This document shows, one piece after another, positions 1 through 64,000 of a stretch of DNA of 64,000 nt. The DNA is from Globomyces pollinis-pini (taxonomy: Eukaryota > Chytridiomycota > Chytridiomycetes > Rhizophydiales > Globomycetaceae), in the NCBI GenBank assembly GCA_025399215.1, contig MU621133.1, positions 1-64,000 on the forward strand, in the 5' to 3' direction. Positions within the stretch are counted from its first letter, which is position 1, and each line of letters begins with the position of its first letter. Position numbers and translations under genes: made by a program. Under the pieces are notes generated by a model. That model did not search any database, was not told the origin of the DNA, and saw only the letters and a list, made by a program, of their open reading frames with translations.

Positions 1-1742
1 TCTGACAGTAATCCACTGACTTCAACCACCTTCTGTAGTTTGTCTTCATCCAATGGAAGATTGAACAAAATATTCTTTTCAATACTGCCACTCATAATCC
101 ATGCCAATTGGGAGCAATAAGCCACCTTTCCATAAATCGTAACCTGTATGTTAGTTGGCACGTTATCAGTTACCTCTCCAGAAACCTGGATTGATTCTCC
201 AATCAAGCCTGAGAAGAAGGAAGACTTTCCAGATCCAGTAGCACCAACAATACCAATCAGTTGACCTTTTGGAATAACTGCATTGAAGTTTCGTAGATGA
301 AATGCATCGGGAGTTTTCAATTCTTCATTCGCTTTTTTTTCGTCCTCTACTTTTGGTGTGTCTTCAGCAATAGGCTCTTCCCATCTCCAGGTGACCTTTT
401 CTAAAGTCAGAGCACTGGTACTGTCAGATGCATCCCTTCGGATAATACTATCTATCAGTTCTTCACTGGATAAGTAATCTTCAATACGCTTCAAGGAGAT
501 AAATGCTTGAGGGATATCAGATACTAACCAACTAAGCATCATGAGTGGCGCAAGAAGCATGGCAAAATAGTTCAATGCCGGAAAGATAATTGATGCCTTC
601 ATTGGATTGGATTGGGAGTAGATAACGAAAGAAATGGTACTGAGCAAAACGGGAGCTAGCATACCTAACCCTTGAGAAATACCCATTATCACCCCAAACT
701 TATTCAAGCTATCTTCTTGCAATTGTCTTGCCGCCATGATTTTCTCCTTGAAATAGTCTTGCATAGTTTGGTATTTCACGACTTTCATATTCATCAACAT
801 TTCTCTAATGATCCCAATACGTGCATCTGCACCTTGGAACCATCCTTGAAGTGCTGCACCAGAATAGGGACCAAATAAAGTGGTAATACCAGTAAAAACT
901 CCCAACGTAATGGCACCAGCCCAGATTGAATTTCCAAGTAATCGGTAGAGAAAGTAAATGGAGAGAAAGATCTGTAATGGAATCTGCCATAAAGCCACTA
1001 AACTAGTTGGTGCCTTTATCAAATTCACAGTGTCCTGATTGACCAAATTCATAACTTTTCCCTCAGTAAATAGCTATAGAGAGTTTAGATTGACTGTTAA
1101 TATTACCATTTGAGACTTTGGAGCCAATCGCAATGATTTCTCATAGATGGCACCTATAATTGCTGATCGGAGAACTTGTGAAATTCTTCTTTTGATACTT
1201 TGCTCCACAGCAGCGATTGTGGTTGCTACCAATTGTAATCCAAACAATAATGAACCAATCAAAATGCCGCTATTATATAGGAACTCAGTGTTTTGTGTTG
1301 GATCCACAAAAATAATTAACTGACAATTTAGTAGTTGGTACAATTACCTGTTGTAACACATAGGGAGAATACAAGCCAACACCCAAAGCACTAGCTGCCA
1401 ACAAGTTGATGGCAATTCTATAGAGGTGAGTTTTAGGAAATGGATTACATTTGCAATGAGAGAATGCTGAACAAACTTCGTGCAAGACTTGGTTTTGGCT
1501 TTGAAGAATCATCAAAATGCTCTTTCAACTGCTTCCAATACGGATCAAATTTGACATTGATTGCTTCTGCTTTATCTTTATCTGCTAGTTCTGGTAAATC
1601 CTCCTCAACCAGTGCATTTTTCTTGCCTACAAGTAACACTGGAGTCTTTCGTTTAAATATATTCAAAGGAATTACATACCAACCAACTAAGCGTGATGTA
1701 ACTGAGTGGATTCGGGGTTATTTGAGTTTTTTTGGAGACCAT
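1..1742 (-). CDS. ABC transporter, subfamily C (MRP-like), N-terminal part, truncated by the window edge
   Basis: ATP-driven membrane exporter of the ABCC/MRP group; the substrate cannot be told. I start it at the ATG at 1740-1742, which has an in-frame stop just upstream. The first exon ends NPLSYITLSWL and a 34-nt intron (1646-1679) joins it to TPVLLVGKKNALVEEDLPEL, the classic ABCC entry segment before transmembrane domain 1. Further introns of 31 nt (1418-1448), 28 nt and 33 nt follow, each restoring frame. The hydrophobic TMD1 leads into the first nucleotide-binding domain with Walker A GATGSGKSS (about 211-252) and the Q-loop region CSQLAWIMSGSIEKNILF near 85-140. The gene continues beyond base 1, so signature motif, TMD2 and NBD2 are not visible. 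Family assignment is firm; the exact orthologue is not. Confidence 0.9.
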
Positions 1743-2948
1743 AAATTAAAAGGGCGCATCCCATCCATTTTTATATCCTTGAATTATTCATGCCACTTGC
1801 ATGTGTTTTCCAAAAGAGTTGTGTAACCAAATGTGCTTTCGAGGCGACCAAGCACAAAGCGTTACAGATCGTTTAGATTTAGTCCATGTTCTTGATTGTT
1901 ATTAATTGAATGTGTGGTTTTTCAAAGGCAAATAAGCTTGAAAACTTTTGTCACGGTCTTCCAAAATGGATTATTTTGAACTATATGTTTCATCCCAAGT
2001 GCAATGTAACCTGAAGAAACTTACAATTTAACTTGTAGATCATAAAGCAACATATTATATGATTATCCTACTCATCTCAATCAGATCCAGCTGTAGAGCA
2101 CACCTTTAAGAAACAATTTTTATGCTTTTTTCATTAAATTGCCCAGAGGTACTAGGTCACACATGGTTCCGTGTTCCGATTCAACTGCAAGGAGATTGCT
2201 GTGTAGTTCCCTGTATCAGATGATGACTTTGGGACGTTTCAAGGCCAAGAGTATTTTTATGGAGGATGTGGCGGCCTTTACTTTAGTTTATAGACTGCGA
2301 TTGGTAATGTTAAGGTGTGTGTCTTATACGGTATGGAAACTACTGAAGACACATACTCTAAATTCTGAAATCGCATTCGAGATTAACCTAATTATACTAA
2401 AAAAAGCGTACAATGAAGTTTCACAATTGGAGCACAACACGAGTCCTCGCAAAAAGTATTTTTAATTCAAGGTTGTTGTTTTGAGTCTGAATTATTTTGA
2501 TATGAATTTTAATGTGTCAGACTGTAATTGTAATAGAATTAAAACGAATTTATTGAGAACCCACACATGAATGGTGTCACTTTCCTTCGTCTTACATTTA
2601 ATGAAAATTCTAAATTGATACCTTTTCTGACTAATTTGACACCCTTCTTTGATTTGTGTTTTCATTAGTATTTTGGTATGAAATTGTGTATTCTTAATGG
2701 TAGTGTTCTTTTAACAGACATAAGATTTACTTGACTGTGAAAGATTCCGGGTGGGTTTGGTTGTCGAGGTTGTTGAGGAGGTCGGAGGAATATTCGGATG
2801 GTAGTGATGTTGTTAGTGGTAGTGATTGTGAATCTGATAGATCCGAGTAGTAATTTGCCATGTGTTTTTCTATCTATAATACGAGATATCCAGATATTGA
2901 ATTTGTGGGTATTGCGAATGATGTTGGGGATAATAAATTCTTTTTGCA
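1743..2948. other. Gene-poor 1.2-kb stretch with coding-like fragments
   Basis: I find no confident gene here. Two pieces on the + strand look faintly coding. Around 2150-2350 one frame reads SDDDFGTFQGQEYFYGGCGG and later VCVLYGMETTEDTYSKF, but stops interrupt it and no intron repairs them. Around 2560-2853 a frame reads NEFIENPHMNGVTFL, then WYEIV, a good 30-nt GT...AG intron (about 2688-2717) and HKIYLTVKDSGWVWLSRLLR ending at a stop after a Ser/Asp/Glu-rich tail. This could be a decayed gene or a real small gene I could not model. The 5' flank of the ABC transporter and the promoter of the SppA-like gene must also lie here. Confidence 0.35.
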
Positions 2949-5116
2949 ATGTTCAGTAGAACATCACATTTAGCAAGGAGATTGAATATCAAACACTTTT
3001 CATCAAACCAAGGAGATCATTCAAAGGAGAGAGGTTCATGGTCAATAGGTAGAAGTCTTTTGAGAGGAGCAAAATATGTTGTTGTAAGTGGAGGGGTCAT
3101 TTTAGCAACCGCCAGTATCTATCGTTATTATGTATTCAAAGCTGAGATCAATAAAAGAATGAGTATTGAAAACAATACTATTGTTTATTGGAAGTTGAAT
3201 CAGGTTTTAGTTTGGTTATTAATCCTAAGCATTCCATAACAGAAACGAAACCGAACATTCATCAATTATGGGATGTTGTAGGCAATAGAAGTTTGAATTC
3301 TATAACTTTCTTGGAGTTGTTAAAATACTTGAAGATGATCGAAGAGGATAATCGAGTAACTGGTACTTGAAATTTAAATACTTATTATTTGTAGGTTTGT
3401 ATCTAGATTTGAGCACCGGAATAAAACAAACTTCTTTGGGATTTGCGCAATTGCAAGAACTCTATGTACGGATTCAAATGTTGAAACAAGCTAAAAGGTC
3501 TAATCCGCTTACCAAAGACTTTAAGGCCATTGCATTTACTGATACATTTAACTCTCAAGCTCATTATTATTTGGCAACTGCTTTCGATGAAATACATATG
3601 GAACAAACGGGATCTTTGCCATTAACTGGATTCTCAAGCTCTCAACCTGTATCTTTATCCGTATCACTGACGTTAGTTTTTCAAAACTCTATTAACAAAG
3701 TTGGGCTTGGAAGTACAAGCACATGCTGAAGGGGATTACAAGTCAATGATATCACCAATGACAAAAGATGAATGGCCTAAAAAACAACTCGAGAACATGA
3801 TGAACTTGTTTTCATCCTTGAACACACAATTGAAAACTAGAATTAGCCATTTTAGAAATGATCAAAATGTTAAAGATAGTAATTGTCATTTCTCTATCTA
3901 ACCTTGCAAAGGGATCAATCCAACAGAGCTTGAGACTATTTCTTTACCCAACAACGGTCTGGTAAACCCCCAAAGAAATTTTAACATTCTAGGCAAGTGT
4001 GCAAGATATTATGCATCTCGCGCCAATATCGGCAGTTGAGAGTTTACAACAAAAACTGGTTACACATATATCTTATAAACGAAATTTTATTCCAATCGAT
4101 GATAAGTTTACAAATGCAGCTGGAAATCGGGTAATGGAACTTCGCAAGTATAAACAAACTCGTTGTGAAGAATTGGAAAAAGAAAAATCCACCACTTTAC
4201 CATTGATTGCCATCGTGTATTTGGTGGGAACAATTACCAGAGGGGATAATGTCAATCAAGCTGGAGCGATAAGCAAAGCCCTTTTAACGGCGGCACATGA
4301 CAAAAATGTTGTTGGTATTGTTCTTCGAGTTGGTAATTTCACTTTATTCGTTAAATTTGAATAGATTCGGGTGGTGGTGATGCAATTGCAAGTGATAGTA
4401 TCTGGGAAACAGTTCACCATATTTCAAAAGAATTAAAGAAACCTGTGGTTGCAAGCTATGGGAATGTATCAGCTTCTGGTGGTGTATATGCTTCCAGCGC
4501 TTGTGATAGAATCTTATGTTCGCCTGGTACAATAACTGGTTCTATAGGTGTAGCACAAATTAAACCTATTATTCCTGAAGAAACTCTAAAAAGCTATGGG
4601 ATTAATATGAATGAAATCCATTTTTCAGAAGGCAGCAAGAATAGTTCTTTTTTACGTAAATTGGAGGGTGTATATTGGGAAAGGTTAAAGATTCAATCTC
4701 AAAATATGTATAATCTGTTCAAAAAACGAGTGGCAGATGGCAGAAATTTAGACCTAGACTACATTCAGTCAGTTGCACAAGGTCAAGTATGGACGGGCGT
4801 CCAAGCACGAGAAAATAAATTGGTAGATAAGCTAGGTAATAGTTTATCAGTATTCATTATAGGTGGGTTTGACGAGGCGATAGTTGAAGTCAAGAAATTA
4901 GCACTTCAAAATGCACTTGCTGAAGCAGAGACTATAGTGTTTCCTAAACGTTTAAGTTGGTGGGAGCAATTAGTTGATGCAGGAAATCCAGATAAAGTGG
5001 CATCTTATATGAAAGGTATCATTTCTGTAATGATACAATCAACCCGATCGGATTTTGAAACAAAATCTTCAGCTGATCTAAAAATGGAGTTGGACCAAGA
5101 CGTAGTACTTAAATAA
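2949..5116 (+). CDS. SppA-family serine protease (protease IV-like), probably mitochondrial, copy 1
   Basis: Membrane-associated serine protease of the signal-peptide-peptidase A family, which uses a Ser/Lys dyad. The N terminus MFSRTSHLARRLNIKHFSS is basic, Ser-rich and acid-free, as in mitochondrial presequences, and is followed by a membrane segment (YVVVSGGVILATASIYRYYV). The N domain has the family block YYLATAFDEIHMEQTGSLPLTG; the likely catalytic Lys lies in GDYKSMISP, aligning with the E. coli K209 region. The C domain has DSGGGDAIASDS, the nucleophile Ser in SASGGVYASSACD, and TGSIGV. Tiny introns include 26 nt (3204-3229), 32 nt (3363-3394) and a 27-nt in-frame one (4836-4862). Its 3' end lies 20 nt from the convergent Yih1 gene. 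A paralogue is at 28680-30741. Family sure; location inferred. Confidence 0.88.
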
Positions 5117-5136
5117 ATTTATTAAAACAAATATCA

Positions 5137-6013
5137 TTAATTTATGAATTGCTTTTCAACCAATAGGTCTCTAGCACAATTGTTTATGTATTTGAATCGG
5201 CTAGGTCCCAATTGAACACCACCATACCTAAAATTAAACTACCAGTAAAACTAACCATCTGGACACCACAACGTAAACATTTTCGGCGTTTGCTAATTGA
5301 AGTAAATGTAAGAGACGTGCACCAGCAGCAGTTTCACCATCATCATCACCATCTTGCCTTACAACTCCATTTGGTTCTACAATTCGATAAGCGGCAATAT
5401 TATGAGTCGCTCTGGAAATTTTACTACGATTAAACTATATAAACAATTACGTGTTGGACAATAACGTTTTTCGAACCAATTTTATCTCTTTAAGTGTCAT
5501 CACTTTTGCAACATGTGCAATAAATATACTCTTTTTTTCTATGGTTGGTTCTGATGAATGGTATATTGTTGGGCAATTGGGAATAATCCAATAACCATTC
5601 TCATCATATGGGTATTGTACAGTATTTGGTAATTGAACAGCTTGCAATTCCTCAATGAGTTCTGATTCATTAATCTTATTGTATTTGCTTTGCTCCAGGT
5701 AGTCTTTCAACCATTCAATCCATTCAAATAATACAACTTCACCAGGTTGAAAAAGTCTATGGAAATTATCCTGTATGTCTTCCATACATTCTCTTTCCAA
5801 CTGCTTGGACGAATCAATGGTAGACTGATTGATATATGGAAATTTAATTGTGAATTCGGGTATTTCCATTGGATAACTAGGCAGAAATTTGAAATTGATT
5901 TGAACTTCACCATGGTGCAATGGGATAATAAATGGATTGTTTAACAAATTGCATTCATATATGGATTCAATTGCTAGTATCTCTTGCTCTAAATCTTCAC
6001 TGATGGATCCCAT
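5137..6013 (-). CDS. YIH1: Yih1/IMPACT homologue (RWD domain plus UPF0029 domain)
   Basis: Yih1/IMPACT proteins bind Gcn1 through an RWD domain and damp activation of the eIF2-alpha kinase Gcn2, so this is a probable translation and amino-acid-stress regulator in the cytosol. The start is the ATG at 6011-6013 (MGSISEDLEQEILAIESIYE), a typical RWD opening; the in-frame codon further upstream is only TTG. The C-terminal UPF0029 block reads SRATHNIAAYRI, ETAAGARLLHLLQLANAENV and YGGVQLGPSRFKYINNCARD, very like IMPACT. Two introns of 27 and 28 nt split this block; without removing them the protein would end early. It converges on the SppA-like gene with a 20-nt gap, so the two 3' UTRs probably overlap. 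Assignment is strong. Confidence 0.88.
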
Positions 6014-9867: not shown

Positions 9868-9889
9868 GTCGAAAAAACAGAAAAAGGGA

Positions 9890-10437: not shown

Positions 10438-12495
10438 CTAATTTTTTCCGTACAACCTATCAACTTCAGTGGCATACTTCTGCATGATAGGTTTTCGATT
10501 CAGTTTCTGTGCGGCAGTGAGTAATCCATTGTCTGGTGTCCATTCATCGTTGGTAACGTATATAGCCTTCAGGATTTCTGCACCTTTGAAATTGGCTACT
10601 CGTGCACATACAGCGAAATCTTTCACCATCGCTTCCAAAATCTTTGGGTTATTCAAATCAGATGCATCAACTCCTAATGTTTTGGCCAATTTCCCAACTT
10701 CAACTTCATTGGCGACCACAATGGCAATGATATAAGATTGAAGTGGGTCGGCATAAACGACCATGTTCGCAACATATCTTGATGTTTTGTATTGTGATTC
10801 TAATTTTTCGATTGCAACATATTCACCATGAGAGAGTTTGACCAAGTTCTTGACCCGATCAATGATAATCAAGTTTCCGTCCGGTTTCCATTCACCAACA
10901 TCACCAGTCTTCAACCAGCCATCTTCAGTTAATACCTCTGCTGTGAGTTCAGGTTGCTTGTAGTATCCTTGCATGACATTAGTACCACGAACCCACACTT
11001 CTCCTTGCGGGTTGGAACCATCGGTAGGGTTTGGGTTGTAATTGGTGGTTTTGACCAGCTTGATTTCGGCGTGAGGAAATGGTCCACCACAAACACCATA
11101 GTTACCTCTCATTTTTGGACTCTGTACTGCAGTTGAGCCGCAAGTTTCGGTCATACCATAACCTTGAATAACATGAAACAATACCATTGTTAAAAATTCT
11201 TGAGTCTCTGGTGCCATTGGAGCTCCACCACTGAGTGCAAGCTTTAAGTTTCCTCCAGTAGCTTCTTGAATCTTTTTGAATACAGTACGATCAACAAACC
11301 CAGTACTGGCATTCATTTTGTAGAGCTTTTTCTTCAACTGGTATGCTTTGTTGAAGATATATTTTTCAGGGGTACTGGCGTTGTCCAATTTTGCAATGAT
11401 TCCTTTTCTAATTGTTTCCCAAACCGATGGAACACCAACCATCATGACTGGCTTTAGTTCGCCGAGATCACCTTTACAGTTACGGACGCTTGTGTCTGTA
11501 AGGGTTCGAGGAGTGCCATATCCAATTTGTATTCCACCAAAGACACATAGATTTTGAACTAAAAATTCCAGGACGTGGGCTAAAGGAAGGTAACCAAGAT
11601 AGGATCCACCTGCGTCAAAATAGTCACCAAGAGCTGTATAAGCACCACCAACAGCACCAACAATATTTGAATGAGAAATCATTACCCCTTTTGGTTTTCC
11701 AGTTGAGCCAGAGGTATACATAATGCAGGACAAGTCTTCAGGAGAAGGTGGTGTAGGTTCTACCGGATTTTGGCGACCTAGCTTTTGTACTTCAGCGAGC
11801 GAATGGAATTCCAAGCTAGGGCAAGAATCTTGAACTTCTTTTAAATTTTCGGTCGATACAGTTCCACTGTAAATGATATGTTTCAAGGTCGAAACTTTAT
11901 CACCAATTTGTTTTACAACAGATAACAAGGTGCTCTGCGTGAAAAGGATGGACACTTCACATTCATTCAGAGAATAAGTCAGTGCATCAACACCTAGGTT
12001 ATCGTACGCAGTAGTAATAGTGATCGTTTGGGAATAACAAGCTTGTGCAAATATCATCCATTCTTTACTAGAATATCAATTGATTAGTATTTACCTGGTA
12101 GAATGGAAGATGGTCAGTTTGTCTTTTGGTTGTAAACCAAGTTTGATCAATCCTGAACCAATCTGTTTGGCCATTTCATAAACTTCTGAATAAGTAACCC
12201 AAGAGAAGGGAGATAATTCAGGAAACTTCCAAATTTTAGTTTCAGTCTTTGTCTCTGCACCAATAGTTTTAGTTACTTCCTTCGCTTCTTCCACAATACG
12301 TAGCGTCTCCCTACTTCCAAACAATGGTCGATCAGCTCCATAGGTACGTACACCATAAAGCAATACATCATATAAAGTCTTGATGGAAGGATGAGGAGTA
12401 GATACTAGAGGTTGATCTTTTGGTGATAAACCATATCTATGGGGTCTTCCAGCATCAGCGGTTGGATGGTCAATTTCGTAACTTGCAAAGTTCAT
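10438..12495 (-). CDS. Long-chain acyl-CoA synthetase, tandem copy A
   Basis: Activates long-chain fatty acids to acyl-CoA with ATP, feeding beta-oxidation, lipid synthesis and protein acylation. Exon 1 starts at the ATG at 12493-12495 (MNFASYEIDHPTADAGRPHR); a 27-nt intron follows FHSTR and exon 2 resumes with KEWMIFAQACYSQ. Total is about 676 residues, usual for Faa/ACSL. Signatures: AMP-binding loop YTSGSTGKPKGVMISH, GYGMTETCG, and [19 protein letters not shown] with [20 protein letters not shown]. No signal peptide is obvious. The downstream copy B at 12992-15058 has the same structure and a largely identical 3' half. A TATAAATA box lies 34-41 nt upstream of the ATG. Substrate chain length is not readable from sequence. 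Confidence 0.93.
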
Positions 12496-12991: not shown

Positions 12992-15058
12992 CTAATTTTT
13001 ACCATACAACTTATCAACTTCAGTGGAATATTTCTGCATGATTGGTTTTCGATTCAGTTTCTGTGCGGCAGTGAGCAATCCATTGTCAGTTGTCCATTCC
13101 TCGTTGGTAACATATATAGCCTTCAGGATTTCTGCACCCTTGAAATTGGCTACTCGTGCACATACAGCGAAATCTTTCACCATCGCTTCCAAAATCTTTG
13201 GGTTATTCAAATCAGATGCATCAACTCCTAATGTTTTGGCCAATTTCCCAACTTCAACTTCATTGGCGACCACAATAGCAATGATATAAGATTGAAGTGG
13301 GTCGGCATAGACGACCATGTTCGCAACATATCTTGATGTTTTGTATTGTGATTCTAATTTTTCGATTGCAACATATTCACCATGAGAGAGTTTGACCAAG
13401 TTCTTGACCCGATCAATGATAATCAAGTTTCCATCCGGTTTCCATTCACCAACATCACCAGTCTTCAACCAGCCATCTTCAGTTAATACCTCTGCTGTGA
13501 GTTCAGGTTGCTTGTAGTATCCTTGCATGACATTAGTACCACGAATCCAGACTTCTCCTTGAGGGTTGGAACCATCGGTAGGGTTTGGGTTGTAATTGGT
13601 GGTTTTGACTAGCTTGATTTCGGCGTGAGGAAATGGTCCACCACACACACCATAAACACCTCGCATGTTTGGACTCTGTACTGCAATTGCACCACAAGTT
13701 TCGGTCATACCATAACCTTGAATAACATGAAACAATACCATTGTTAAAAATTCTTGAGTCTCTGGTGCCATTGGAGCTCCACCACTGAGTGCAAGCTTTA
13801 AGTTTCCTCCAGTAGCTTCTTGAATCTTTTTGAATACAGTACGATCAACAAACCCATGGTTAGCATTCATTTTATGCAATCTTTTCTTCAATTGGTATGC
13901 TTTGTTGAATACATATTTTTCCGATGAGCTGGCATTGTCTAATTTTGCAACAATACCTTTACGGATAGTCTCCCACACTGCTGGAACACCAACCATGAAA
14001 AGAGGTTTTAATTCACCAAGATCACCCTTACAGTTACGGACGGAGGCATCGGTCAAAGTACGTGGAGTACCATATCCCACTTGAATACCGCTGAATACAC
14101 AAAGATTTTGTACGATGAATTCAAGAACGTGGGCTAAAGGAAGATATGCAAGATAGGATCCGCCATCAGTCAAGTGCTCCTTCAATACTGTATAAGCACC
14201 ACCAACAGCACCAACCATGTTTGAGTGAGAAAGCATGACACCCTTTGGGTTTCCAGTAGAACCAGATGTGTACATAATACAACACAAATCTTCAGGAGAT
14301 GGAGGATTAGGAGCAGCAGGGTTCAATCGCCCTAATTCTTGAACTTGAATGAGTGAGTGGAATTCCAAGTTTGGGCAGGCAGCTTGAACTTCTTTAAGAG
14401 TCTCGTTGGTAACAGTTCCACTGTAAATGACGTGTTTTAGAGTTGGCACCTTGTCGCCAACTTGCTTTACAACGGAAAGTAAGTCACTCTGAGTGAAAAG
14501 GATTGATACTTCACATTCATTCAGAGAATAAGTCAATGCATCAACACCCAAGTTGTCGTAAGCAGTAGTGATGGTAAAATTTTGTGAATAACACGCTTGA
14601 GCGACAGTCATCCATTCTTTACTAAGAAAGGTTAGCTTTTTATAATGGATTTAATACCTGGTAGAATGAAAGATGGTCAGTTTCTCTTTTGGTTTCAAAC
14701 CCAGTTTGACTAATCCAGAACCAATTTGGTTCACTGATTCATATACTTGCATATAAGTAACCCAAGAATATGGAGATAATTCTGGAAACTTCCAGGTTTT
14801 AGTTTCGGTCTTGGTAACTCCAGCAACAGTCTTTGAGACTTCCTTTGATTCTTCTACAATACGTAGAGTTTGTCTAAAGCCAAACAAAGGGCGGGTTGCT
14901 TCATAAGTACGGACACCATAAAGCAGTACATCATATAAAGTCTTGATTGTAGGATGAGGAGAAGATACTAGAGGTTGGCCCTTTGGGGATAAAGCATATC
15001 TACGTGGTCTTCCGGCATATTCGGTAGGTTGGTCAACTTCGTAACTAGCAAAGTTCAT
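12992..15058 (-). CDS. Long-chain acyl-CoA synthetase, tandem copy B
   Basis: Same enzyme family as copy A and also about 676 residues. It starts at the ATG at 15056-15058 (MNFASYEVDQPTEYAGRPRR) and has one 36-nt intron at exactly the position used in copy A, after FHSTR and before KEWMTVAQACYSQ. Motifs: [25 protein letters not shown] and [14 protein letters not shown]. Exon 1 and the first part of exon 2 differ from copy A at many positions, whereas the 3' half is almost the same at nucleotide level, including a 162-nt identical block (13695-13856 against 11141-11302). The shared intron site proves tandem duplication; the block of identity suggests later gene conversion. Both copies keep all catalytic motifs. 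Confidence 0.93.
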
Positions 15059-18483: not shown

Positions 18484-20127
18484 ATGGATGAAGATTTACT
18501 GGCAGATTTAGAAGATTTGGGAGAAAGTGCAGACGAAGATATCAATCTAGAAGAAACAGAAGTGGAGCAACCAGAGTTCACTTTACTTGGTCAAGGTGAC
18601 CAATCTATTCAGGGATTAACTCCTACTTACCATTCAAAACAAATGCAACAGACACTATCAGTAAGTTGAAATCCTAATTAAATACAGAAAATTGAGGAGT
18701 ATATGAAAGAAGGCAACCGATTTTATACTTCAGGGAGAGTGGAGCAAGACCAAGAATATCCAGTGATTGTGCAATCAAATTTGATTACCGTAGAAATCTC
18801 CCATGAAATCGATCAAATTATTAAAGTACATTCATATCATTATTGACGAAATAGTTAATCAAAGACAAATATGCTGTTAGATTTCCAGAATTGGAATCAT
18901 TAATCTTAAATCCAATTGACTTTGCTAAAATTGTTAAAATAATCGGAAACGAAACTGTAATAATTTATGATTAAATCGACAGGACTTGACTAAATTGGAC
19001 TTGAAGGCTTTGTTACCATCAGCAACAGTGATGGCAATTACTATTACAGCAACTACTACCAACGGTAACATTTTATCACAGACAGAACTTGAGACTATTT
19101 TTGATGCATGTGATTTGGTGGTGGATATGGATCAGAAGAAAACAAGACTTTTGAACTATGTTCAATCAAGAATGAATATGCTGGCACCAAACTTGACAGC
19201 ATTGTTGGGTCCTGAAATTGCTGCAAAATTAATGGGGATAGCAGGTAAATATTGGCTATCCATTGAGTAAATCTTAGGTTTATCTATTTTGTATTTATCT
19301 AAGGTGGTTTGACAGCATTAGCAGCCATTCCTGCTTGTAATATTTTAATTCTTGGGGCACAAAAGAAAGCAATGATTGGATTCTCAAGCATAGCCATGAA
19401 TAAGCATCAAGGAGTGATCTATGAAGCTGATTTAGTTGCTCGTGTTCCTAACACTCCAACCAATGTACGTCGAAAAGCTGCTAGACTACTATCTGCGAAG
19501 TACGTTTTGTTTTTAACCAACATTTTAGATGTGCTCTTGCTTGTCGAGTGGATCTAGCAAGGGAATATTCCAATGGTTCAATGGGAAAAGAATTTCGTGA
19601 TGACGTTCAGAAAAAAATCGATCTTCTATTACAACCTCCACCAGCAAAGAAAGTGAAAGCATTACCATTACCAATCGAATTTAAAAAGCGTCGTGGTGGT
19701 AGACGGTATTATTGTATGGTTCTCAATAGTTTTATAGTGCTCGAATGGCTAAAGAACGAAATGCAGGTTCAGAATTATCAAAAGCTGCCAATCGAGTTGC
19801 GTTTGGGGAGGCAGAGATTGAAATAGGACACTCAAATGGTGATGTATTAGGACTAGGATTACTTGGTGGGTCAACTGGAAAAATTCGATCAGTCAAAACA
19901 AATACTAAATATAAATGTAAATTACTGTTTTTGTTTAACCATATTTAGTACAACTATCAAAGCGACAGAAACAGATGCAAAATTTCTCTACAAATACGAA
20001 TGGATTGGCTACGTCCGTTGCATTTACACCTGTTCAAGGTATTGAATTGGTGGATCCAGGAATGGTTGCTCGACGTGTCAAAGAAGCAAATGATAAATAT
20101 TTTGGTAATACGACTAAAAAATCTTAA
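18484..20127 (+). CDS. PRP31: Pre-mRNA splicing factor Prp31
   Basis: Component of the U4/U6.U5 tri-snRNP; its Nop domain binds the U4 5' stem-loop with Snu13. The first exon (MDEDLLADLEDLGESADEDI) starts at the ATG at 18484. Conserved segments in order: YAVRFPELESLILNPIDFAK, LLPSATVMAITITATTTNG, the Nop domain with LNYVQSRMNMLAPNLTALLG, LAAIPACNILILGAQKKAMI and GVIYEADLVARVPNTPTNVR, then the C-terminal KKRRGGR, RVAFGE and TPVQGIELVDP. At least eight introns of about 25-40 nt are needed, most very small. A tri-snRNP protein here fits a genome that must splice tiny introns constantly, though it is present in nearly all eukaryotes. High confidence. Confidence 0.92.
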
Positions 20128-43000: not shown

Positions 43001-43697
43001 CTTACTGAACTTTATACTGGAATTGCAGAAAAGAAACTGATTGGATTAATGGTTGATCAAGTAATTCAATGAACTCTAAGTTTTTTTAGTTATCATTTGA
43101 TTTTCGAGAACGTATACATCCACTTGCATTAAAATACAAAACCAATGGAGTTAAAAAGTTTTTTAAAGAATTGGATAATAACTTGACAGCATCGGAAGTA
43201 TCTGATATTGAGGATCATCTAGAACCATTATTTGATTTTCTAAATTCGAATCTTGAAGTTATGATGGCAACGCTAGGTGAAACTATAGCATTTGAAGTTG
43301 TTTTGGGAGTTTGGAATCAACTTGTAGATCATGCCGAAGCTATGATTGTACCATCTTTAGGAGATGATCCAAAAGATAGGAAACAATGGGATATACGAAG
43401 ATTTAACTTCTTTCTCAAATTTATGGAAGTAATTATTGATATTATGTTTATCTATAGATTGCTACTGAATTTTTTGTCGTTGATGGGGAAGGTTTGGATG
43501 TGGAAACATTGGAAACTCCATCATATCAATCATTAAAGTCTATCATGGAAAATTACTTTAAAACTAAATCAGAATTACAAGAAGAATATCTTGCACTAGA
43601 AGATCGTAGTGATGCTAATTGGATGTTGAAGTTAATTAAAATGAAGGGAGGGAAGGATTTTGTAGATGATATGTTACGAACACTTATTCAAACATAA
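40038..43697 (+). CDS. Munc13/Ync13-like protein with C2 and MUN domains
   Basis: Large protein assembled from about a dozen exons separated by very short introns, starting at the ATG at 40038. An early C2 domain is recognisable (IMIEIAKASDLIP, NPYVLIRYLGSTWISPISQP, TLNPKFDF). The MUN region follows, with MHD1-type helices RAIHIPTLAAWAFYKPLSIQ and DWVKAALDHDNYEKL. A second C2 domain (FLYTLSILNANLQPI, IAWNSKLYGISHY, MGTLSLLPLQRN) leads to an MHD2-type helical end (FKELDNNLTASEVSDIEDHL, KMKGGKDFVDDMLRTLIQ). This MHD1-C2-MHD2 layout is that of fungal Munc13 relatives such as fission yeast Ync13, which helps vesicle exocytosis and septation. SNARE-related function here is inferred. Exon joins in the middle (41160-42060) are the least certain. 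Confidence 0.82.
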
Positions 43698-43782: not shown

Positions 43783-44747
43783 TTAAATATCTTGTACAGC
43801 TTCGATCTTGGCCAATGCTAATTCTACCAAATGCCTTTGATTGTTTATGTCCAGTATTTCAAAACATGAATAGTCCAATGATACTTCGTACAAGTATACA
43901 ATGATTGTTTCATATATAGAGAGTTTCTGATTTGCTAGAATTGTGATGCAATTGCATACCCTTGCAATAGCCTCCCGTTCAATTGACGAAATATCCTATT
44001 CATAAATAAAATTAGTGACAGTACCTCATTTTCATTTGAATATAATCCTTCAGGTTGATTTGCCATTTCAGGGGAGATGTAAACTAATATAAGAAAAGTG
44101 CACGTACCATGTTTAGAGCACCAGATATAACCATTTAACCCTAAAACAACATCAACTCCACAGGGCAATGTGATAAAATGAGACTTTGATCGCTTAACCA
44201 ATGCGGATGGAACTGTCACCAAACAACCATTACGTAGCTTTCCATATTTAATATTTCTGGTATGAATAGATACACTTCCGTCCGAGTGAAAGGCCTGTAC
44301 TTCTGCAGACAACAAATCACCCTCTGAAAAAAATGTTCGCATTTCCAATTCATCAGATTCAGTTTTTCTCCTCTGTCATTAGAGTAATCAAAGTTGTACC
44401 TGAACCCCTCCCGGTAAATTAATGGAAGATAAAAGTAAGGACGCATCATGGCGACCCTTAATATCAACCTTCCACTTCCTTTGTTGTAATTCAATAATAC
44501 GTCCGACTACTACATCTCCGATCTCACCATTAAATCTGGTTTTCAATGGTTTAACAGATAATAGCTTATTGACTCGCTGCAGAGTACCAGCGACTGAAGC
44601 TACCAAACTGTCATTCAAAGTAAATGTTCCATGACCGCGCATAAATGCTAAATCCTTCGTCAACGACTGTCCTGGAGTCACTATCGAAGCGTCTGAATCT
44701 ACAGCCATCGGTTCATGTCGCTCTAGGGGAATGATTGTCAAAGTCAT
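43783..44747 (-). CDS. RRP4: Exosome cap subunit Rrp4
   Basis: RNA-binding cap protein of the RNA exosome, which trims and degrades nuclear and cytoplasmic RNAs. The ATG is at 44745-44747. N-terminal domain: RGHGTFTLNDSLVASVAGTL; S1 domain: VKPLKTRFNGEIGDVVVGRI, then LLLSSINLPGGVQ, a 27-nt intron and RRKTESDELEMRTFFSEGD; GSVSIHTRNIKYGKLRNGCL; KH domain: LGLNGYIWCSKHV and ISPEMANQPEGLYS. A 24-nt intron (44084-44107) and a 29-nt one split the C-terminal part, which ends ALAKIEAVQDI at the stop 43783-43785. It faces AIF head-to-head with about 40 nt between start codons. Very strong match. Confidence 0.93.
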
Positions 44748-44787: not shown

Positions 44788-46690
44788 ATGAATTCAATTC
44801 GCAGAATCCTCAAGCAGAAACCCATGCTACGCAATGCAAGATTGCACACAGAACGAAAGAAGAGTGGATCTCCAGTTACCGCTTTAGTATTAGTAGGGAC
44901 GTTGTTGGCACTTGGTCCTGCTGTACGTTCTTACTTCTAATTCTTAGTACTCTTTATGGTCAAAATACGAAGATAAACCTGTTAAAAAACCATCACCAAT
45001 TACTACTGTTTCTGTTCCAAAGAGCGTGACTGGCCCAGATGTAGATTATATTTTGATCGGTGGAGGTACCGCTTCTTTCAGTGCAATGCAGGTATCTATT
45101 GCTGAAATTTGATTTTAGGCCATACGTGAAGTCAATCCTACTGCTAAAGTGTTGATTATTTCAGAAGAGGAATTCTTTCCATATCAACGACCACCTCTAT
45201 CAAAAGAATTATGGAACTCTTCTGCCAACTTGACTGATTTGACCTTTGTCGATTGGCAGAACAAAAAATCAAGGTATAAATGCGTATTACTAAGGTTACA
45301 GTATCTTTTATGCCCCTTCAAGTATGCTGATCCATTTAATCGTTAACGATAGATTACTTCAATGTTATTGATCCTAAAAATGACATTGTAGCTCAATTGA
45401 CCAAGAATACTACAAAAGTAAATTATTTGCCAAAAACCAGTGTTCTCAGATTAGATACTGATTCAAAATCGGTGATTTTGAATAATGGTATATTCTTTGA
45501 AATTTTATCATCCAGCTACTATTACTTATTCTAAAGTTTTAATTGCAACTGGTGGAACTCCTAAGAAGTTACAAGTTGCGGAGAAATTGTCTGAACAAAT
45601 GAGAAAGAAAGTCACAACTTTCAGAAATGTGGACGACTTTAAAGCGCTCGATAAAGTAACAGATAAAGCCAAAACAGTTGTAGTTATTGGTGGCGGCTTT
45701 TTGGGATCTGAATTATCCAGTGCATTAGGTACTAGTATAAAATCACTAAACTTTTGTAGCCACTAAAGGTTTGTGTTTGAATGTTTATGTTTCTAGCAAA
45801 AAAATCTAAGATAAAGGTACACTTTTTTTTTTGGTTTATTTAGTTAGGTTATCCAAGTATTCCCAGAAGAAGGGAATCTATCAAACGTTTTCCCAAAATA
45901 CTTGACTGCTTGGACGACTAGTAAATTGGAAAAGGGTATGCTTTGATGATTCATTCTGATTTTTAGAGGGTGTGATTGTTAAACCAAAATGCTCAGTGAC
46001 TGATGTTTCCGAAAAGGATTCAAGAATTGAACTCAAGTTGAACAATGGAGAGACTGTTACCGCTGTAAACCTTTCCATCTGATATTTCCATAGGATCATG
46101 TAGTTGTCGCTATGGGATTATCTCCTAATGTGGCTATCGCACATAAATCTGGAATTGAAGTGGATCCTGTCTTGGGTGGAATTCTTGTGAATGCCGAATT
46201 AGAAGCTCGATCTGACGTTTATGCTGCTGGAGATGTGTCTTCATACCACGATATTGCATTGGGCAGACGCAGAGTGGAGCATTACGATCATGCTGTCAAT
46301 AGTGGTCGAGTGGTATTGAATCCTCTTTAATGGCTAGGCTGGACTAAACATGGCTGGAGTTAAAAAACCATACACCCATCAATCTATGTACTGGAGTAGC
46401 ATTGGCTCTAATGTTAATTTTGAGGCTATTGGTTTGACTGATCCTAAACTAAAGACTATCTCTGTTTGGAGTCAACCGACCTCCCAAAACCCAGATAAGC
46501 ATCACAAAGGAGCTGTATACTACATGAGAGATGCAAAAGTTGTTGGTGTGTTGCTTTGGAATTTGCACGACAAGGTAATGTTAATTTAATTGACTAGTTG
46601 CAGCTGGAATTAGCCAGAAATCTTATTGCTGATGCAAAAACCATCAATGATCCTAATTCTTTGGCTTCAGCAATTAACGTTCATCAATAA
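44788..46690 (+). CDS. AIFM1: Apoptosis-inducing factor (AIFM1-type) mitochondrial flavoprotein
   Basis: FAD oxidoreductase of the mitochondrial intermembrane space. The ATG at 44788 gives MNSIRRILKQKPMLRNARLH, a classic presequence, followed by a membrane segment ALVLVGTLLALGPA. An earlier in-frame ATG at 44731 would add 19 residues and overlap Rrp4. FAD-binding motif: YILIGGGTASFSAMQAI; NAD motif: VVVIGGGFLGSELSSAL; AIF marks PYQRPPLSKELWN, IATGGTPKKL, VYAAGDVSSYHD and MYWSSIGSNVNFEAIGL. Ten or so introns of 25-36 nt. Around 45729-45847 the frame only closes if a 9-nt exon (45760-45768) and a 20-nt exon (45797-45816) are spliced in, giving SALATKAKKSKIKVIQVF, which aligns well with animal AIF. 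Strong identification. Confidence 0.9.
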
Positions 46691-46762: not shown

Positions 46763-48250
46763 TTACATTGGCATTGTGTAAATGATAGAGCTCTTCTTAA
46801 AGCCATTGCTAGAAAATATTAAACCAAAATAAAACTTACAAGCATGATGCAGCAGACATAGTATATGCACCCATTCGGTCAACGACGAGCCAATCACCAA
46901 TTCTCATTTCTGGTAAAGTGACATCCCTGCTGATCAAATCAATCGAGTCACAAGTTGGACCCCAGATTGAGCAGGCATATTCTGGAAGTGCCAAAGGTTG
47001 TTCATAGCAAAACTTTCCACCCCGATAGAGAGGCTTTGCTTTGATCACAATGTGGTCAAAGGTAATGCAATTGAAACTACCATACATACCATCATTGATG
47101 TAATCTAAAGTTATAAACAAGACTCTTACACATAAAGGATGGATGCTCATCAGAAGAAACGTTTTCCATTGGTGTATCCAATTGATTTCTATTGTCATAG
47201 AAAGCAGAGTAGGCTTCCATTGTGGTGTCCCTAGGTACTGTTCTTCTGGCAACAATGTTTACAGCGAGAGTATATGCTGATGATACAAAGTAACGACCTG
47301 GTTCGGAAATAACTCGAATATGTGGAGGGAATAGTCTATCAATGGCTGGTCCCAAGGCTTTTGCTACATCCACAAACTGTAGACCATCAGGACTATTGCC
47401 AGGGAATCCACCACCAATATCAAGAAGCGAGAAATTAAACCCAAGAGCTGCACCAATATCGAACGCTTGACGGGCCAATTCAACTGCATCGGTAAAGGAC
47501 GAAGCGTCAAAGCAGCCACTTCCAACATGGAAACTGATTCCTATAACATTCAAATTCAATTTCTTGGCAGTTTGTAGCAAAATTGGCACAAGAGTCATCT
47601 TGGCACCGAATTTGACACCAAAGCGACACACAGACTTAGAGTCATCAGTTAGAATTCTCAGCACCAAATCAGATTTAGGGGCAATGGATTGGATCTTGTA
47701 CAATTCATCGACGTTGTCAAAAGTCATCACATTGACTTGTTTAGATGTGGCGAACTTTATGTGGGAAGCTTGCTTACATGGGTTGGCATAAATAATGCGG
47801 CTTGGGTCAACACCTTGGTCTAACACCAATTGTACTTCACCCTAAAGTTTGTTAAGGAATGATTATATACCTTGCTCGCACAATCAAAACCGGTACCACA
47901 TTTGGCTAGTACTTTTAAAACCATTGGGTCTGGGTTGCATTTTACAGCTGAAAAAGTAAGTCACGAAAAATTTTACCATAAAAAGGCTGCACACGAGGGA
48001 GCAACTGTTGCCATTTTTTGTATTGACGGACAACTTCGCTCAAATCCGCAACATAAAACGGATCTTGTTCTTCAATATCATGTTTGGAGACACCGTCTCG
48101 TAGAATCGAGGATACTGACCGATGCAAAATTGCAGGGGCAGTAGGAGTAATAATTTCAGTTTTTGATGGTATTTTTTTAAGACTTGGAGGGGCCAAAGTT
48201 TGACTTCCAAAGTCCAAGTGACTTGCGAGAAATGTTTGAGTTTCTTTCAT
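46763..48250 (-). CDS. ODC1: Ornithine decarboxylase
   Basis: PLP enzyme that makes putrescine, the first and usually rate-limiting step of polyamine synthesis. It starts at the ATG at 48248-48250 ([15 protein letters not shown]). Active-site features: PLP lysine in the split block QPFY-intron-[46 protein letters not shown], and the second-subunit Cys in [10 protein letters not shown]. The true C terminus needs a 31-nt intron after SAASC and then reads [15 protein letters not shown], stop 46763-46765. A 27-nt intron-like element lies in its 5' leader at 48298-48324. The long leader fits the translational control known for ODC in other eukaryotes, but no uORF was proved. High confidence. Confidence 0.93.
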
Positions 48251-49827: not shown

Positions 49828-52743
<2,916 letters not shown>

Positions 52744-52856: not shown

Positions 52857-55800
52857 TCAACTGTTCAACCTGGTGATCATAACGCTACCGAATTGTGCAC
52901 TTTTTACTAAATTAAAATCATCATTATGATCATTGACTCCCAAAACTTCTTTCCAGGCATTTAATATTTTTCGAAGCAGCTGTTGATTCGCCCTGAAGTT
53001 TAGAATATTATATATACCAAGTCTCTGCAAACACCTAATTGTTAAGAGGACGTGAATCACTTACAAACTTTCTATAGGAATTAAACATATTTCGGCGATA
53101 TGCGTTCCTCCACGATTTAAAGAATTTGATGACAGTTTTTCGATTATGATAAATGGCACGTAACTTTCGAGTTTTTTTATAGCGCCATGTTGTGATGCTT
53201 GACCTCAACAAAGAGTTATTGTATATTCTATTCTCAAATACTATAATTAAGAGTAAAAACCTTACATTTACATGTCGAGTGTTTGTTTAACCAAACAAGG
53301 AAATATTTTCTACGTAACAATCTCTGAGAAGATACGAATTTGGCAACCTAGTTTTAATTTCAATCAATTAACTTCATTTCTGGTCGAGTTTACCCAATGA
53401 TGAAAAGTACAACTTTTCAATTTTGAAAGTGAATGGTTCTCGGCAATAGTTCCCCTTGTTTGCCATATGAACAAAAGCTGATTCCATTTGAAAAATGAGC
53501 GGTGTAACCTTCTCTTTTCAAGTTCTTTACGCTTCACTAAAAGGCAAACCATTTTAAACCAAGATGCAAAATGAGATAGTGCAAGCTTTTTATCATACTG
53601 ATTACAAGCTCGCTTTGTATACCGCTCAATGTTTTGCTAAAATTAGTAAAGCAACGTAATCAACATACTTGGCGTGATGCCCACGTTGTAAAGTTGGAGG
53701 CTCTTACTCGATTCTGCCAAAAAGATTTAGCCAACAGATAACCATCGGCCTTTCTTTTCCATTTCAAAAACTTTGGCTGTATTAACTTTAGATTCTTGGA
53801 ATTTCTGAAAGTTCGGGCTATTGCCAACTGTCTCCAAACTACGGTGAGTTAAAAAAGATACCTTGAAAATACTTTGCTTTCTTTTTGGTAAAATGTAACT
53901 TTACAGATATCTTCAATTGCTTAAAATGGGACTTCTCATAACGCTTATTGTGTAGTCGATAGATCCAATGGCTAAAGAAATACCTTTCCGATTGGAAGCG
54001 GGAAAACTGCCGTGCCCATCGAAGCAGCATTTTCTGCTTCCAGGCCAAAAAGAAGGTCGTGATCTGTGAATGATTTGCCAAAATTCCAGCTTGACTTAGT
54101 GCGATCCGCTGATTTGACTGGAATCGAGTACTAATTTTCCAAAATGAAAAGATTGATTGTAACCGCGGTTTACTAAATTGAACATAAATAAGCTTTTCAA
54201 TCATTGCTTTTTGCCTCCAATAAAGAAAACATCTAGATTTCAGACGATTAACTCTGGCCATGGTAGCGACTTTTTCTAAGTGATTATTTTGGAAGGTTAT
54301 CACATATCGCTTCTTCCTCCATATCCAAAAATATTGCCTATATATTTGAATTAAGCGTTCCTCTCTCACGGCAACATCTAATGATCGATAATATGACGCC
54401 TGCGACCTCCATTTATGCAACGCTTTTTTAAGTACATGATTAACGTGTCTTTTTGCTGCTACTTCGTTAAACTTGGCAATTTTTTCATGAATAATTTTCC
54501 AGTGTTGAAACATACTTCCCTTCTTTCGGAAAGCAAATGTTAATGACGCCCATTTCCCTGTAGCTATTTGTCTTTCTAGGCGTATATTCCAATACCGAAG
54601 CACTTTTTGTGTCGACCGAAACGAACAAACGTACATTGCTCGTTGATATCGGCGAATTTTTGTAAACAGCCGCTTTCTCCATATTCGATACGCCAAAGTT
54701 TTTAGCCTTTCAGTATACCAACTGATTGCAATTTCAATTAAATCATTTGGACGAGGGTATGACACACTGGCTTCCCCTTCTGCTAAATGCAGAGTCACAA
54801 ATGGGCGCGGTTTACTTGCACCACGCTGATAGAATATATCTGCGTCTAGACTATGGAGTTTGTAGTATCTTCTTCTCCACATGAAAAAAAAGTGCTGCAA
54901 TTGAAAACGTTTAGAAACTTCAGTAGCATTTCCATAGTCCATTCGATGCTTGTATGCTTTTCGAAGAGCATAAAATACCTTCCACTTCTTGTATCGGTTA
55001 GCTTGTTTGCCCTAAAGTTAGCTGGTCGATCTTACCCGTCTGGCGTTTCTCCATGCAATAAAAAACTCTTTCCATATGGTCCATTGCCTTTCGTTAAAAT
55101 GCTCATCTGCAATTTTCCATGCATGCTGTCTAATTCGCTTTGTCTTCCATTTGCTAAAGACTTTTTTCAAAAGACGAGCAGAAGAATTAAGTTGATTCCC
55201 ATGGTATCGGTTCATCAAGAGTTTCCATTTTGAAAAGCAGTGTTTGATGATAGCAGCTAGCGTTAAACAGCATCGTCTTACTTTCTCCGACAGCAGTTCC
55301 ACTATTTTCCATTAATAAATTACTGGTATATATTAATTTCCATAGCCTAAATAGTTAATTCATTGAATATTACTTAAAATGCCGTTGAAGTGTGTTCTTT
55401 CGCAAGGTATTGCGAATAATTCTATTTTGTTCCATCCTTGTGACCCATGTTAACAGTATACGTAAAATTCTGATCTTATTTCTTTTTGCAATAAAACGTT
55501 GATAAAATAGTTCATGTTGCCAATTTTTGAACGTCCGTTTTAGTCGAAGAATTGTATGTGAGTCAACCTGCGGTTCGTTATAGAAATTCTGGTATTAGAT
55601 TCATGCATTATTACCATTGCTTGGTTATGCATGGTTGTATATCGTCTTAGTGCAAGTTTCCAGGTTAAGAAACATCTTTTTACCACAGCAGCCTGGATAT
55701 TGTTACAATACACTAATCGAGTTAGAATCAGTAATATCAATTACTTTGTGATATTGCGCTTAATTTCCATTTCTTAAAACACAATTGAACACACGACTTC

Positions 55801-62174: not shown

Positions 62175-63595
62175 ATGGTGAAAAGAGCGGTTGTGAATGA
62201 CAATGAAAGTAAAGACCAAATCAAAGAACAGATTGGTGCAAATAGTTCATTGAAAGGTTTGCCAGATCGGTCATTAATTCCTTAGCCTTGAAAGAAGATG
62301 TTAGTCACCCAGTTAAAAAACCAAAAACCCACAGTCCAAAAGTTGATGAACAGTATAAGGAAGTCACTTGCTCGGCTCCTGTTAATATCGCAGTTGTAAA
62401 GTACTGGGGAAAAAGAGATACGAAACTGATCTTGCCAACCAATTCATCATTGTCCGCAACTCTCTCACAAAATGATCTACAATCAACTACCACCGTTCGT
62501 TGTTCAAAATCATTAAAGTCGGATTTACTCTTTTTGAATGGAAAGCAAGAAAGTGTAGAAGCTAAACGATTTCAGACCGTTTTATCTCAAGCTAGAGAGT
62601 GTAGAAAGAAAATGGAAGACGAAGATCCAAAGTTAGCAGATATGTCTACTTGGAAAGTGGTTATCGCTTCCGTGAATAACTTTCCTACCGCTGCTGGCTT
62701 GGCATCATCCGCCTCTGGGTTTGCTTGTTTAGCTTACTGTTTATTTCAACTTTATGAATTACCTCTAAGTATTTCTGAATTATCTCGACTAGCTCGTGTT
62801 GGTTCTGGATCAGCTTGTCGGTCTTTATTTGGTGGGTTTGTAAAATGGGAAATGGGACTTAAAGCTGACGGTTCTGACTCGTTAGCTGTACAAGTGTGTG
62901 ATGAAAATGCCTGGAAAGACATGGAAGCTTTGATTTTGGTTGTTTCTGATGCAAAAAAAGATGTTGGATCTACTGAAGGTATGCAAGATACTGTAAATTC
63001 CTCCGATCTATTAAAGCATCGTATTGAATCGGTTGTTCCAGAAAGAATGAAGAATATGGAACATGCTATCAAGACTCATGACTTTGATGCATTTGCTGAA
63101 TTGACCATGATTGATTCTAATCAATTCCATGCCGTTTGCTTAGATACTTATCCACCAATTTTCTACATGAACGATGTTTCAAGACAAATTATCCGATTTG
63201 TTACTGCTTATAACAAAGTCTTTTTGAAGAAGGATGCTCATGGTAAACAAAGAGGATACCGTGCAGCGTACACTTTCGATGCAGGTCCAAATGCAGTTCT
63301 TTACCTCAATAAGAAGCATGTTGCTGAAGTTATTGGGCTAGTGAATCATTTCTTTCCTACAACCACTTCTGAATCTGACAAGACCCTCTATTATGGACGT
63401 GGAATTAATTACCTGAACGATATCAAAACCAAAGATATTGAGCTTTTAATCAAAAAAATCGGGCTGAAACCATATCCAATCGATTCTCTCAGTCGCATCA
63501 TCAGTACTTCTGTGGGAGGAGGACCAAGATTATTGTCCAACGAATATGATTCATCAGAATCACTCTTGAATTTGAAAAATGAACCTAAGCATTGA
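62175..63595 (+). CDS. MVD1: Mevalonate diphosphate decarboxylase
   Basis: GHMP-family enzyme converting mevalonate diphosphate to isopentenyl diphosphate for sterol and isoprenoid synthesis. It begins at the ATG at 62175; a 29-nt intron near 62250-62280 joins the first exon (MVKRAVVNDNESKDQIKEQI) to the main exon. Motifs: SAPVNIAVVKYWGKRDTKLI, PTNSSLSATLSQNDL, the ATP-binding Ser/Gly loop FPTAAGLASSASGFACLAYC, SGSACRSLFGGFVKWEMG and the catalytic Asp region AYTFDAGPNAVLYLN. About 463 residues, some 45 longer at the N terminus than the yeast enzyme, with a basic KKPKTHSPK patch. Assignment is very strong; the function of the extension is unknown. Confidence 0.94.
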
Positions 63596-63682
63596 ATAAA
63601 TCAATATAACTTTCTGAAAACGCAAATTTCTTTCCTATTGGACTAATATCCTAAGATTCACTATATTATTTATAAGTTTCAT

Positions 63683-64000
63683 TTAAATTATGTAGTAGCA
63701 ATATAAAACCAGCATCATTAGGCAACTAGTTACGCCAATCAGCAGATATGTAGATAATGAAGGTAATATAACTAGCAAAGTAGAAAACACCACAACAATA
63801 ACAGCCGAGCTAATATAGTACCATTTAGCAACCCACACAGTCTTGATCATACAATATGTTGACATATGCTTACTAACCAAACTAAAGCATGAATAATGGT
63901 TATTGATGAGAGCAAGTTTCGAACATTCCGTTATATTTGATTCCAAAACCCGTAAATCTTTCAAAAGTAGTTGAACAACCAGATGATGACCATTTATACA
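63683..64000 (-). CDS. Ankyrin-repeat membrane protein, C-terminal part, truncated by the window edge
   Basis: An open minus frame runs from the right edge to a stop at 63683. The visible start, NGHHLVVQLLLKDLRVLESN, has the ankyrin consensus NGH-x-x-V-V-x-L-L-L and resembles repeats of the F-box/ankyrin gene at 6161-7291. A second, weaker repeat follows (ALINNHYSCFSLVSKHM). Then come two hydrophobic segments, ISSAVIVVVFSTLLVIL and LLIGVTSCLMMLVLYCYY, ending at the stop. It may be a membrane-anchored relative of that family. The N-terminal part lies outside the window. Confidence 0.65.
   Translation of the reverse strand, partial: CINGHHLVVQLLLKDLRVLESNITECSKLALINNHYSCFSLVSKHMSTYCMIKTVWVAKWYYISSAVIVVVFSTLLVILPSLSTYLLIGVTSCLMMLVLYCYYII

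Follow-up and report, generated by a model that had tools for sequence, protein, structure and literature searches.

Can the introns of a fungus be confined to the size range best known from ciliates? The question is raised by a 64,000-nucleotide (nt) stretch of the draft genome of Globomyces pollinis-pini (positions 1–64,000 of contig MU621133.1, assembly GCA_025399215.1; hereafter the window), a member of the Chytridiomycota, order Rhizophydiales, in which dozens of ultra-short GT-AG introns had been proposed by reading of the sequence (the original prediction). The window is part of a draft of 18,547,825 bases in 459 contigs, which we sampled in 26 stretches that together make up 313 kb, or 1.7% of 18.5 Mb; one of them was picked for Prp8 and one for SF1. 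The evidence set out below points, with a probability that we put at about 0.93, to a nuclear genome in which nearly all protein-coding introns are ordinary U2-type spliceosomal introns of ∼29 nt, close to the minimal size.

Length class, splice signals and branch motif

Our own gene finder, with coding statistics taken from long open frames, called 548 introns in the sample after training, with a median length of 29 nt and an interquartile range of 27–31 nt; 527 of them fall between 24 and 37 nt. The window contributes 133 introns, again with a median of 29 nt, of which 129 are 24–37 nt and 119 are 25–33 nt long. Intron lengths are narrow and uniform and lie well under 40 nt, as in Paramecium-type genomes, and introns occur at a density of 2.65 per kb of coding sequence. 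Introns had been expected in nearly every gene, which describes the window well (26 of 29 gene models) but fits the whole sample less closely (125 of 164). The short class is present in the calls from the sample as a whole, and to this extent the set may be called genome-wide, on the basis of 26 stretches and 1.7% of the genome only.

The excess of short introns precedes any training. A first pass over 264 kb, made up of the window plus another 20 stretches of 10 kb, used two dinucleotides as the only splice signal, with untrained splice sites and all lengths from 15 to 300 nt equally likely. With GT-AG it called 194 introns, 74 of them 25–33 nt long. Run in the same way, seven decoy pairs gave 118–183 introns each, with only 7–14 in this length range (GC-AG 7, GA-AG 9, TG-GA 11, CT-AC 8, GT-AC 14, CA-AG 12 and AT-AC 10); the AT-AC run likewise shows no excess at 25–33 nt in these 264 kb. 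When a learned length prior was added to trained splice sites, 411 of 463 introns were 25–33 nt long, and five stretches outside the training set (49 kb) yielded 85 introns, 77 of them in this range. Some of the calls longer than 40 nt were examined. Longer introns called in Prp8 (299, 115, 102 and 76 nt) were rejected, the learned length prior giving introns of 27–32 nt with exons between them, as was a 154-nt call at a helicase-like locus (L010), which by reading of the sequence holds helicase-like coding sequence.

Splice signals were derived from 534 called introns of 20–40 nt. In this trained set 90% of donors have A at +3 and 87% have A or T at +4, with a weak +5 position (0.15 bits); exon positions −2 and −1 are A and G, respectively, in ∼50% each, and 79% of acceptors have T at −3. 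In the untrained set of 74 introns, 86% have A at +3, 78% have T at −3 and only 22% have G at +5. A position-free motif search returned YTNAY; the gain in log-likelihood was 244, compared with 3.6–20 in 12 mononucleotide-shuffled sets, and the motif was placed (posterior >0.5) in 474 of the 534 introns. The putative branch A lies 17–22 nt after the first G in 353 of these 474 and 6–11 nt before the last G in 378. Since the trained acceptor weights reach into the branch region, the untrained set is the fair test of the motif; there YTNAY, with its A 6–11 nt from the end, is found in 56 of 74 introns, compared with 19 on average, and never more than 29, in 300 shuffles. The branch-like word that had been noted near the AG is thus already present, at a fixed spacing, before training. 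Together, the GTA donor, the YTNAY branch site and the mostly TAG acceptor make up what, judged from these profiles, is a U2-type signature.

Under a simple motif rule (485 introns) the spacing from motif to TAG is ∼4 nt, and T content is even before and after the motif (44% compared with 45%), so that a separate polypyrimidine tract would hardly fit. The original prediction allowed almost no space around the branch point as a whole; on the donor side this goes too far, since the branch A usually lies 17–22 nt from the 5′ end and some room is left between donor and branch site. Nested introns (stwintrons) were considered and rejected: three of five introns of 45–76 nt can be split, but so can 103–177 of 200 shuffles of those three.

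In the window and at other loci, stop-free introns with lengths divisible by three look under-represented, chiefly in phase 1. From the stop-containing in-frame introns 53 stop-free ones would be expected; 9 were called and ∼10–15 are estimated to have been missed, from the excess of intron-like in-frame segments within predicted exons. The correction for finder bias is a rough one. Multiples of three are scarce in phase 1 (37 compared with 71 and 74), mixed in phase 2 (35 compared with 50 and 34) and not scarce in phase 0 (73 compared with 83 and 72), where a TAG acceptor can itself serve as a stop. Allowing for the rough correction, the pattern fits selection through translation-coupled decay. 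Such selection has been described in ciliates (PMC5014332).

Junctions in Prp8, MCM6 and ISWI

Three genes permit the called junctions to be compared with proteins from elsewhere. A junction was taken as supported when the 11 residues around it aligned, ungapped and with at least 50% identity, to one or more homologues from outside the genus, and this holds for 39 of 45 called junctions in Prp8, MCM6 and ISWI: 14 of 14 in Prp8 (introns of 27–32 nt), 11 of 12 in MCM6 (25–29 nt) and 14 of 19 in ISWI (24–33 nt). Each gene also contains one GT-AG, in-frame, stop-free segment that the finder read through as coding sequence, of 33 nt in Prp8, 30 nt in MCM6 and 27 nt in ISWI. The Prp8 insertion is absent from homologues, that in MCM6 from the public G. 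pollinis-pini P0121 protein and that in ISWI from a Batrachochytrium homologue. With these three introns exposed by homology added to the 45 called, the total for the three genes comes to about 48, and 33 nt is the greatest length among them. The Prp8 protein is nearest to chytrid fungi among the matches listed (at least 120), the best being Boothiomyces at 88% identity.

The MCM6 gene (49828..52743, minus strand) has 12 called introns, at 49948–49975, 50225–50249, 50421–50449, 50642–50668, 50873–50901, 51233–51258, 51401–51425, 51690–51718, 52014–52040, 52204–52231, 52385–52410 and 52561–52588, all 25–29 nt long. The alignment to the same-species P0121 protein shows identity at 847 of 847 residues and contains one gap of 5 residues and one of 10. 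P0121 agrees with 11 of the 12 called introns and lacks the 10 residues encoded by the further 30-nt intron at 50545..50574. After the intron at 51690–51718 the public protein lacks five residues that are partly kept by other chytrids, a difference that reflects either an alternative acceptor or an annotation error.

The gene for an ISWI-type chromatin remodeller (20249..23786, minus strand) has 19 called introns of 24–33 nt, at 20381–20408, 20529–20556, 20988–21013, 21108–21137, 21211–21234, 21396–21422, 21592–21616, 21787–21817, 21883–21910, 22133–22160, 22401–22427, 22714–22743, 22966–22992, 23173–23202, 23304–23327, 23441–23473, 23556–23586, 23642–23672 and 23751–23777. The probable 27-nt intron that was read through lies at 20843..20869; a 33-nt intron sharing its start may be used instead. 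Comparison with the public protein of Globomyces sp. JEL0801 gives 934 matches in 939 aligned residues, with several gaps. In the public protein 8 extra residues correspond to a 24-nt intron read through, and stretches of 5, 6, 9 and 40 residues found in our model are missing; the 40-residue stretch is kept both in our model and in the Batrachochytrium homologue.

Other gene models of the window

Beyond these genes, Pfam matches extend over many of the junctions in the window. A Prp31-like spliceosome protein gene (18484..20127, plus strand) has introns at 18661–18687, 18826–18854, 18957–18982, 19245–19303, 19500–19528, 19706–19737 and 19917–19948, and its Nop and Prp31_C matches run over six of the seven junctions. 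Its fourth intron, of 59 nt, can be read as two complete back-to-back introns of 33 and 26 nt. As an explanation for this intron and a 56-nt intron of the helicase at L010, back-to-back pairs with halves of 26–33 nt were rejected, since shuffles give them about half the time.

Several introns singled out in the original prediction recur in the models. The Rrp4-like exosome gene (43783..44747, minus strand) has introns at 43996–44024, 44084–44107 and 44373–44399; the second is the 24-nt intron foreseen, which adjoins the end of a KH match, and the 27-nt intron is covered by an RRP4_S1 match (residues 71–142 on model positions 1–72 of 73). The BSD-domain region (33218..34498, minus strand) comprises two gene models with introns at 33772–33800 and 34363–34387; the BSD match (47–93) covers the 29-nt intron, and the expected 25-nt intron belongs to the adjoining model. 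An ABC transporter gene truncated at the start of the window (3..1742, minus strand) has introns at 1074–1106, 1320–1347 (the 28-nt intron already reported), 1418–1448 and 1646–1679, with an ABC_membrane match (90–358 on 4–274 of 274) over two junctions. Two other examples did not reappear. The first SppA-like peptidase copy (2949..5116, plus strand; Peptidase_S49 match) is modelled with introns at 3163–3194, 3363–3394, 3649–3676, 3879–3911, 3962–3992 and 4333–4364, that is of 32, 32, 28, 33, 31 and 32 nt, in place of the 26-nt intron proposed; and the 24-nt intron of an LRRC51-like gene has no counterpart, no such gene having been identified among the window models. The second SppA-like copy (28680..30684, minus strand) is a gene model with introns at 28934–28963, 29435–29466, 29807–29836, 29863–29892, 30074–30102, 30357–30385 and 30513–30540.

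Among other gene models, an AIF-like oxidoreductase gene (44824..46690, plus strand) has 12 called introns of 25–31 nt and a Pyr_redox_2 match (66–398 on 2–291 of 291) over several junctions, with uncertain, very short exons around 45.8 kb. An ornithine-decarboxylase-like gene (46763..48250, minus strand; introns 46809–46839, 47105–47129, 47842–47870 and 47948–47976) has an Orn_Arg_deC_N match (71–304 on 2–247 of 247) over two junctions, and an aldehyde-dehydrogenase-like gene (27209..28420, minus strand; introns 27547–27577, 27912–27942, 27977–28007 and 28082–28108) an Aldedh match (24–363 on 49–386) over four. In the mevalonate diphosphate decarboxylase-like gene model (62175..63595, plus strand) the MVD-like_N and MDD_C domains both lie downstream of the single intron, 62257–62285. 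Acyl-CoA-synthetase-like genes occur three times: as a tandem pair (10438–15058), with very similar C-terminal halves, and as a single copy at 35725–37860. Copy 1 (10438..12495, minus strand), named long-chain acyl-CoA synthetase-like from reading of the sequence, has a 27-nt intron at 12068–12094, and copy 2 (12992..15058, minus strand) a 36-nt intron at 14622–14657; the two junctions fall at the same residue (134), and the introns differ in length and sequence. The third copy (35725..37860, plus strand) is a gene model with introns at 36041–36066, 36170–36198 and 36615–36643.

Matches also bridge introns in an arrestin-like gene (37985..39686, minus strand; introns 38880–38908, 39015–39045 and 39275–39308), where Arrestin_N and Arrestin_C run over all three junctions, in an RWD/UPF0029 gene (5137..6013, minus strand; introns 5228–5255 and 5424–5450), where the UPF0029 match (160–266 on 1–107 of 107) continues residue for residue over both, and in an Nsp1-like nucleoporin gene (24347..26205, plus strand; introns 24351–24379, 25458–25484, 25618–25652, 25829–25857 and 25920–25948), where Nsp1_C (350–459) runs over two. 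Two further loci are gene models only: one at 40038..43697 (plus strand) with 11 introns of 26–38 nt, and one at 53839..55435 (minus strand) with introns at 55012–55035 (24 nt), 55257–55281 and 55347–55373.

Spliceosome, rival explanations and known tiny introns

The original prediction called for a survey of the genome for changes in U2AF, SF1 and Prp8. The parts that could be assessed give no sign of redesign. SF1 was found with its helix-hairpin, KH and zinc-knuckle domains, and U2 RNA with an intact branch-pairing region. Exons resembling U2AF65 (contig C16) match TIGR01642 positions 191–508, no single exon exceeding the whole-protein cut-off; in the U2AF65 gene model, which has a gap, one RRM is over its cut-off. 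Prp18 is present in the genome and Prp31 lies within the window. Prp8 departs from 11 of 1212 near-invariant columns, compared with 5–46 in eight other species, so that an unusual Prp8 was rejected and the protein appears ordinary.

Several observations weigh against the proposal of a genome of ordinary ∼29-nt introns. The introns are predicted from genomic DNA and protein comparisons. With trained splice sites and no length prior, 165 of 279 introns are 25–33 nt long and 85 exceed 60 nt; some of the statistics derive from models that were trained with the length prior, and 14 of the 548 final calls are longer than 40 nt, not all of them proven errors. Five ISWI junctions and one MCM6 junction have no support outside the genus, some of the former probably being slightly misplaced, and one MCM6 acceptor is 15 nt off relative to the public model. 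Among the spliceosomal parts, U1 and U6 RNA were not found in the draft by Rfam models, a search with no eukaryotic positive control, nor was U6 by three core patterns, again with no positive control; these RNAs may be absent from the draft, interrupted by introns or overlooked by the search. No candidate for Slu7 (Pfam PF11708) was found in the draft, which is possibly incomplete, and here too there was no positive control. A follow-up motif pattern for Slu7 gave 4 one-mismatch matches compared with 2 for a control, and was ill-chosen because a second SLU7 chain in the PDB differs at that residue. A possible lack of Slu7 is a lead and not a result. Finally, the U1-to-U6 handover and the decay steps discussed below are steps that we infer.

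The length prior does favour short introns and some exon edges are wrong, and on these grounds the peak might be put down mostly to the gene finder, or to indel errors in the assembly. We regard this as very improbable: the peak precedes any prior or splice-site training, the decoys lack it, the branch motif is present in the untrained set, introns found by homology fall in the same length class and the public MCM6 of the species agrees. Removal of the segments by non-spliceosomal means, or their bypass in translation, found no support and has a negligible chance of being right, given that the segments have GT-AG ends with a branch motif at fixed spacing and that the genome contains spliceosome genes, one of them inside the window. 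The original proposal of dozens of ultra-short GT-AG introns in a fungus is borne out by the decoy controls, the homologue alignments, the public protein and the branch-like motif.

A more serious contender accepts the introns as real and takes them for an old trait common to many chytrids, for example the Rhizophydiales, so that Globomyces would not be special. Several other chytrids are near in protein sequence and the literature searched says little on chytrid intron lengths, and we give this reading a substantial chance, somewhat short of even. Nothing bears against it directly; indels close to the intron positions in annotated proteins of relatives failed to show whether the introns are shared, and in ISWI they pointed to errors in our own model. 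We consider it doubtful that Globomyces arrived independently, in parallel with ciliates, at a fixed-size format (∼17–22 nt from donor to branch and ∼6–11 nt from branch to end) served by a tuned spliceosome, with early U1-to-U6 handover, a relaxed +5 position and possibly loss of Slu7.

If the introns are, as we favour, ordinary U2-type introns near the minimal size, recognition would act across the intron and treat each as a single unit. Pairing would follow the usual scheme, donor to U6 and branch site to U2, with only a short linker left unpaired, and the AG ∼6–11 nt past the branch A would be the one used. Human A complexes are reported to cover 79–125 nt of RNA (PMC11913375; PMC12862383), so that an intron of ∼29 nt hardly has room for U1 next to U2; we prefer a course in which U1 probably passes the donor to U6 before or while U2 settles, instead of remaining beside it. 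The weak +5 position would fit such an early handover. Retained introns would probably be cleared by translation-coupled decay. In yeast, second-step factors have been linked to long branch-to-3′ distances: loss of Fyv6 has little effect at distances of 9–15 nt (PMC11651659), and the title of a 1996 paper by Brys and Schwer, cited in PMC5728500, reportedly makes the same link for SLU7.

The closest parallels are in ciliates. Paramecium introns have a mode of 25 nt in P. tetraurelia (PMC5014332) and a median of ∼24 nt in P. bursaria, which reportedly keeps the exonic −2/−1 consensus without an intronic one (PMC12862383). Globomyces resembles Paramecium in its single narrow size class and GT-AG ends, perhaps also in a shortage of stop-free in-frame introns, and P. 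bursaria in the weak intronic part of its 5′ consensus, but is a fungus, with a mode of 29 nt, a clear YTNAY motif and strong preferences for A at +3 and A or T at +4. Stentor coeruleus has introns of 15–16 nt, with the branch A at position 10 or 11 and no strong consensus (PMC9505925). It shares with Globomyces uniform tiny introns and an otherwise recognisable spliceosome; Globomyces introns are about twice as long, and Slu7 and Prp18 are both unlisted in the Stentor source, whereas Prp18 is present in Globomyces and Slu7 was not found.

Microsporidia, parasites related to the fungi, have introns of this size range, and few of them. An 18-nt intron is cited as an example from the Bigelowiella natans nucleomorph (PMC12316389). 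Globomyces falls in the same size range as both, but unlike the nucleomorph, a relict nucleus, and the microsporidia it combines such introns with an 18.5-Mb genome and ∼2.65 introns per kb of coding sequence. In the fungal surveys consulted, the short end lies at means of 56–63 nt (PMC11913375, PMC8476143). These are the values for Cryptococcus neoformans, with an average of 56 nt (PMC11913375) or a mean of 63 nt (PMC8476143), in which introns under 60 nt make up a larger share than in any other fungus studied in that work (PMC11913375); it is intron-rich with short introns, like Globomyces, but its introns are about twice as long. We found no report of ultra-short introns in chytrids in the open-access literature searched, which leaves out most subscription papers, and genome-portal statistics may already show the length.

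At the DNA level, then, Globomyces appears to be a well-supported new fungal case of ciliate-type tiny introns. The tiny-intron format of ciliates would then also occur in a fungus that is rich in introns and has a recognisable branch motif, SF1 and U2AF65, which would allow a test, beside the well-known yeast and human spliceosomes, of how small an intron can be and still be recognised. Gene catalogues are affected as well, the public JEL0801 ISWI, with its apparent intron read-through and missing stretch, being an example.

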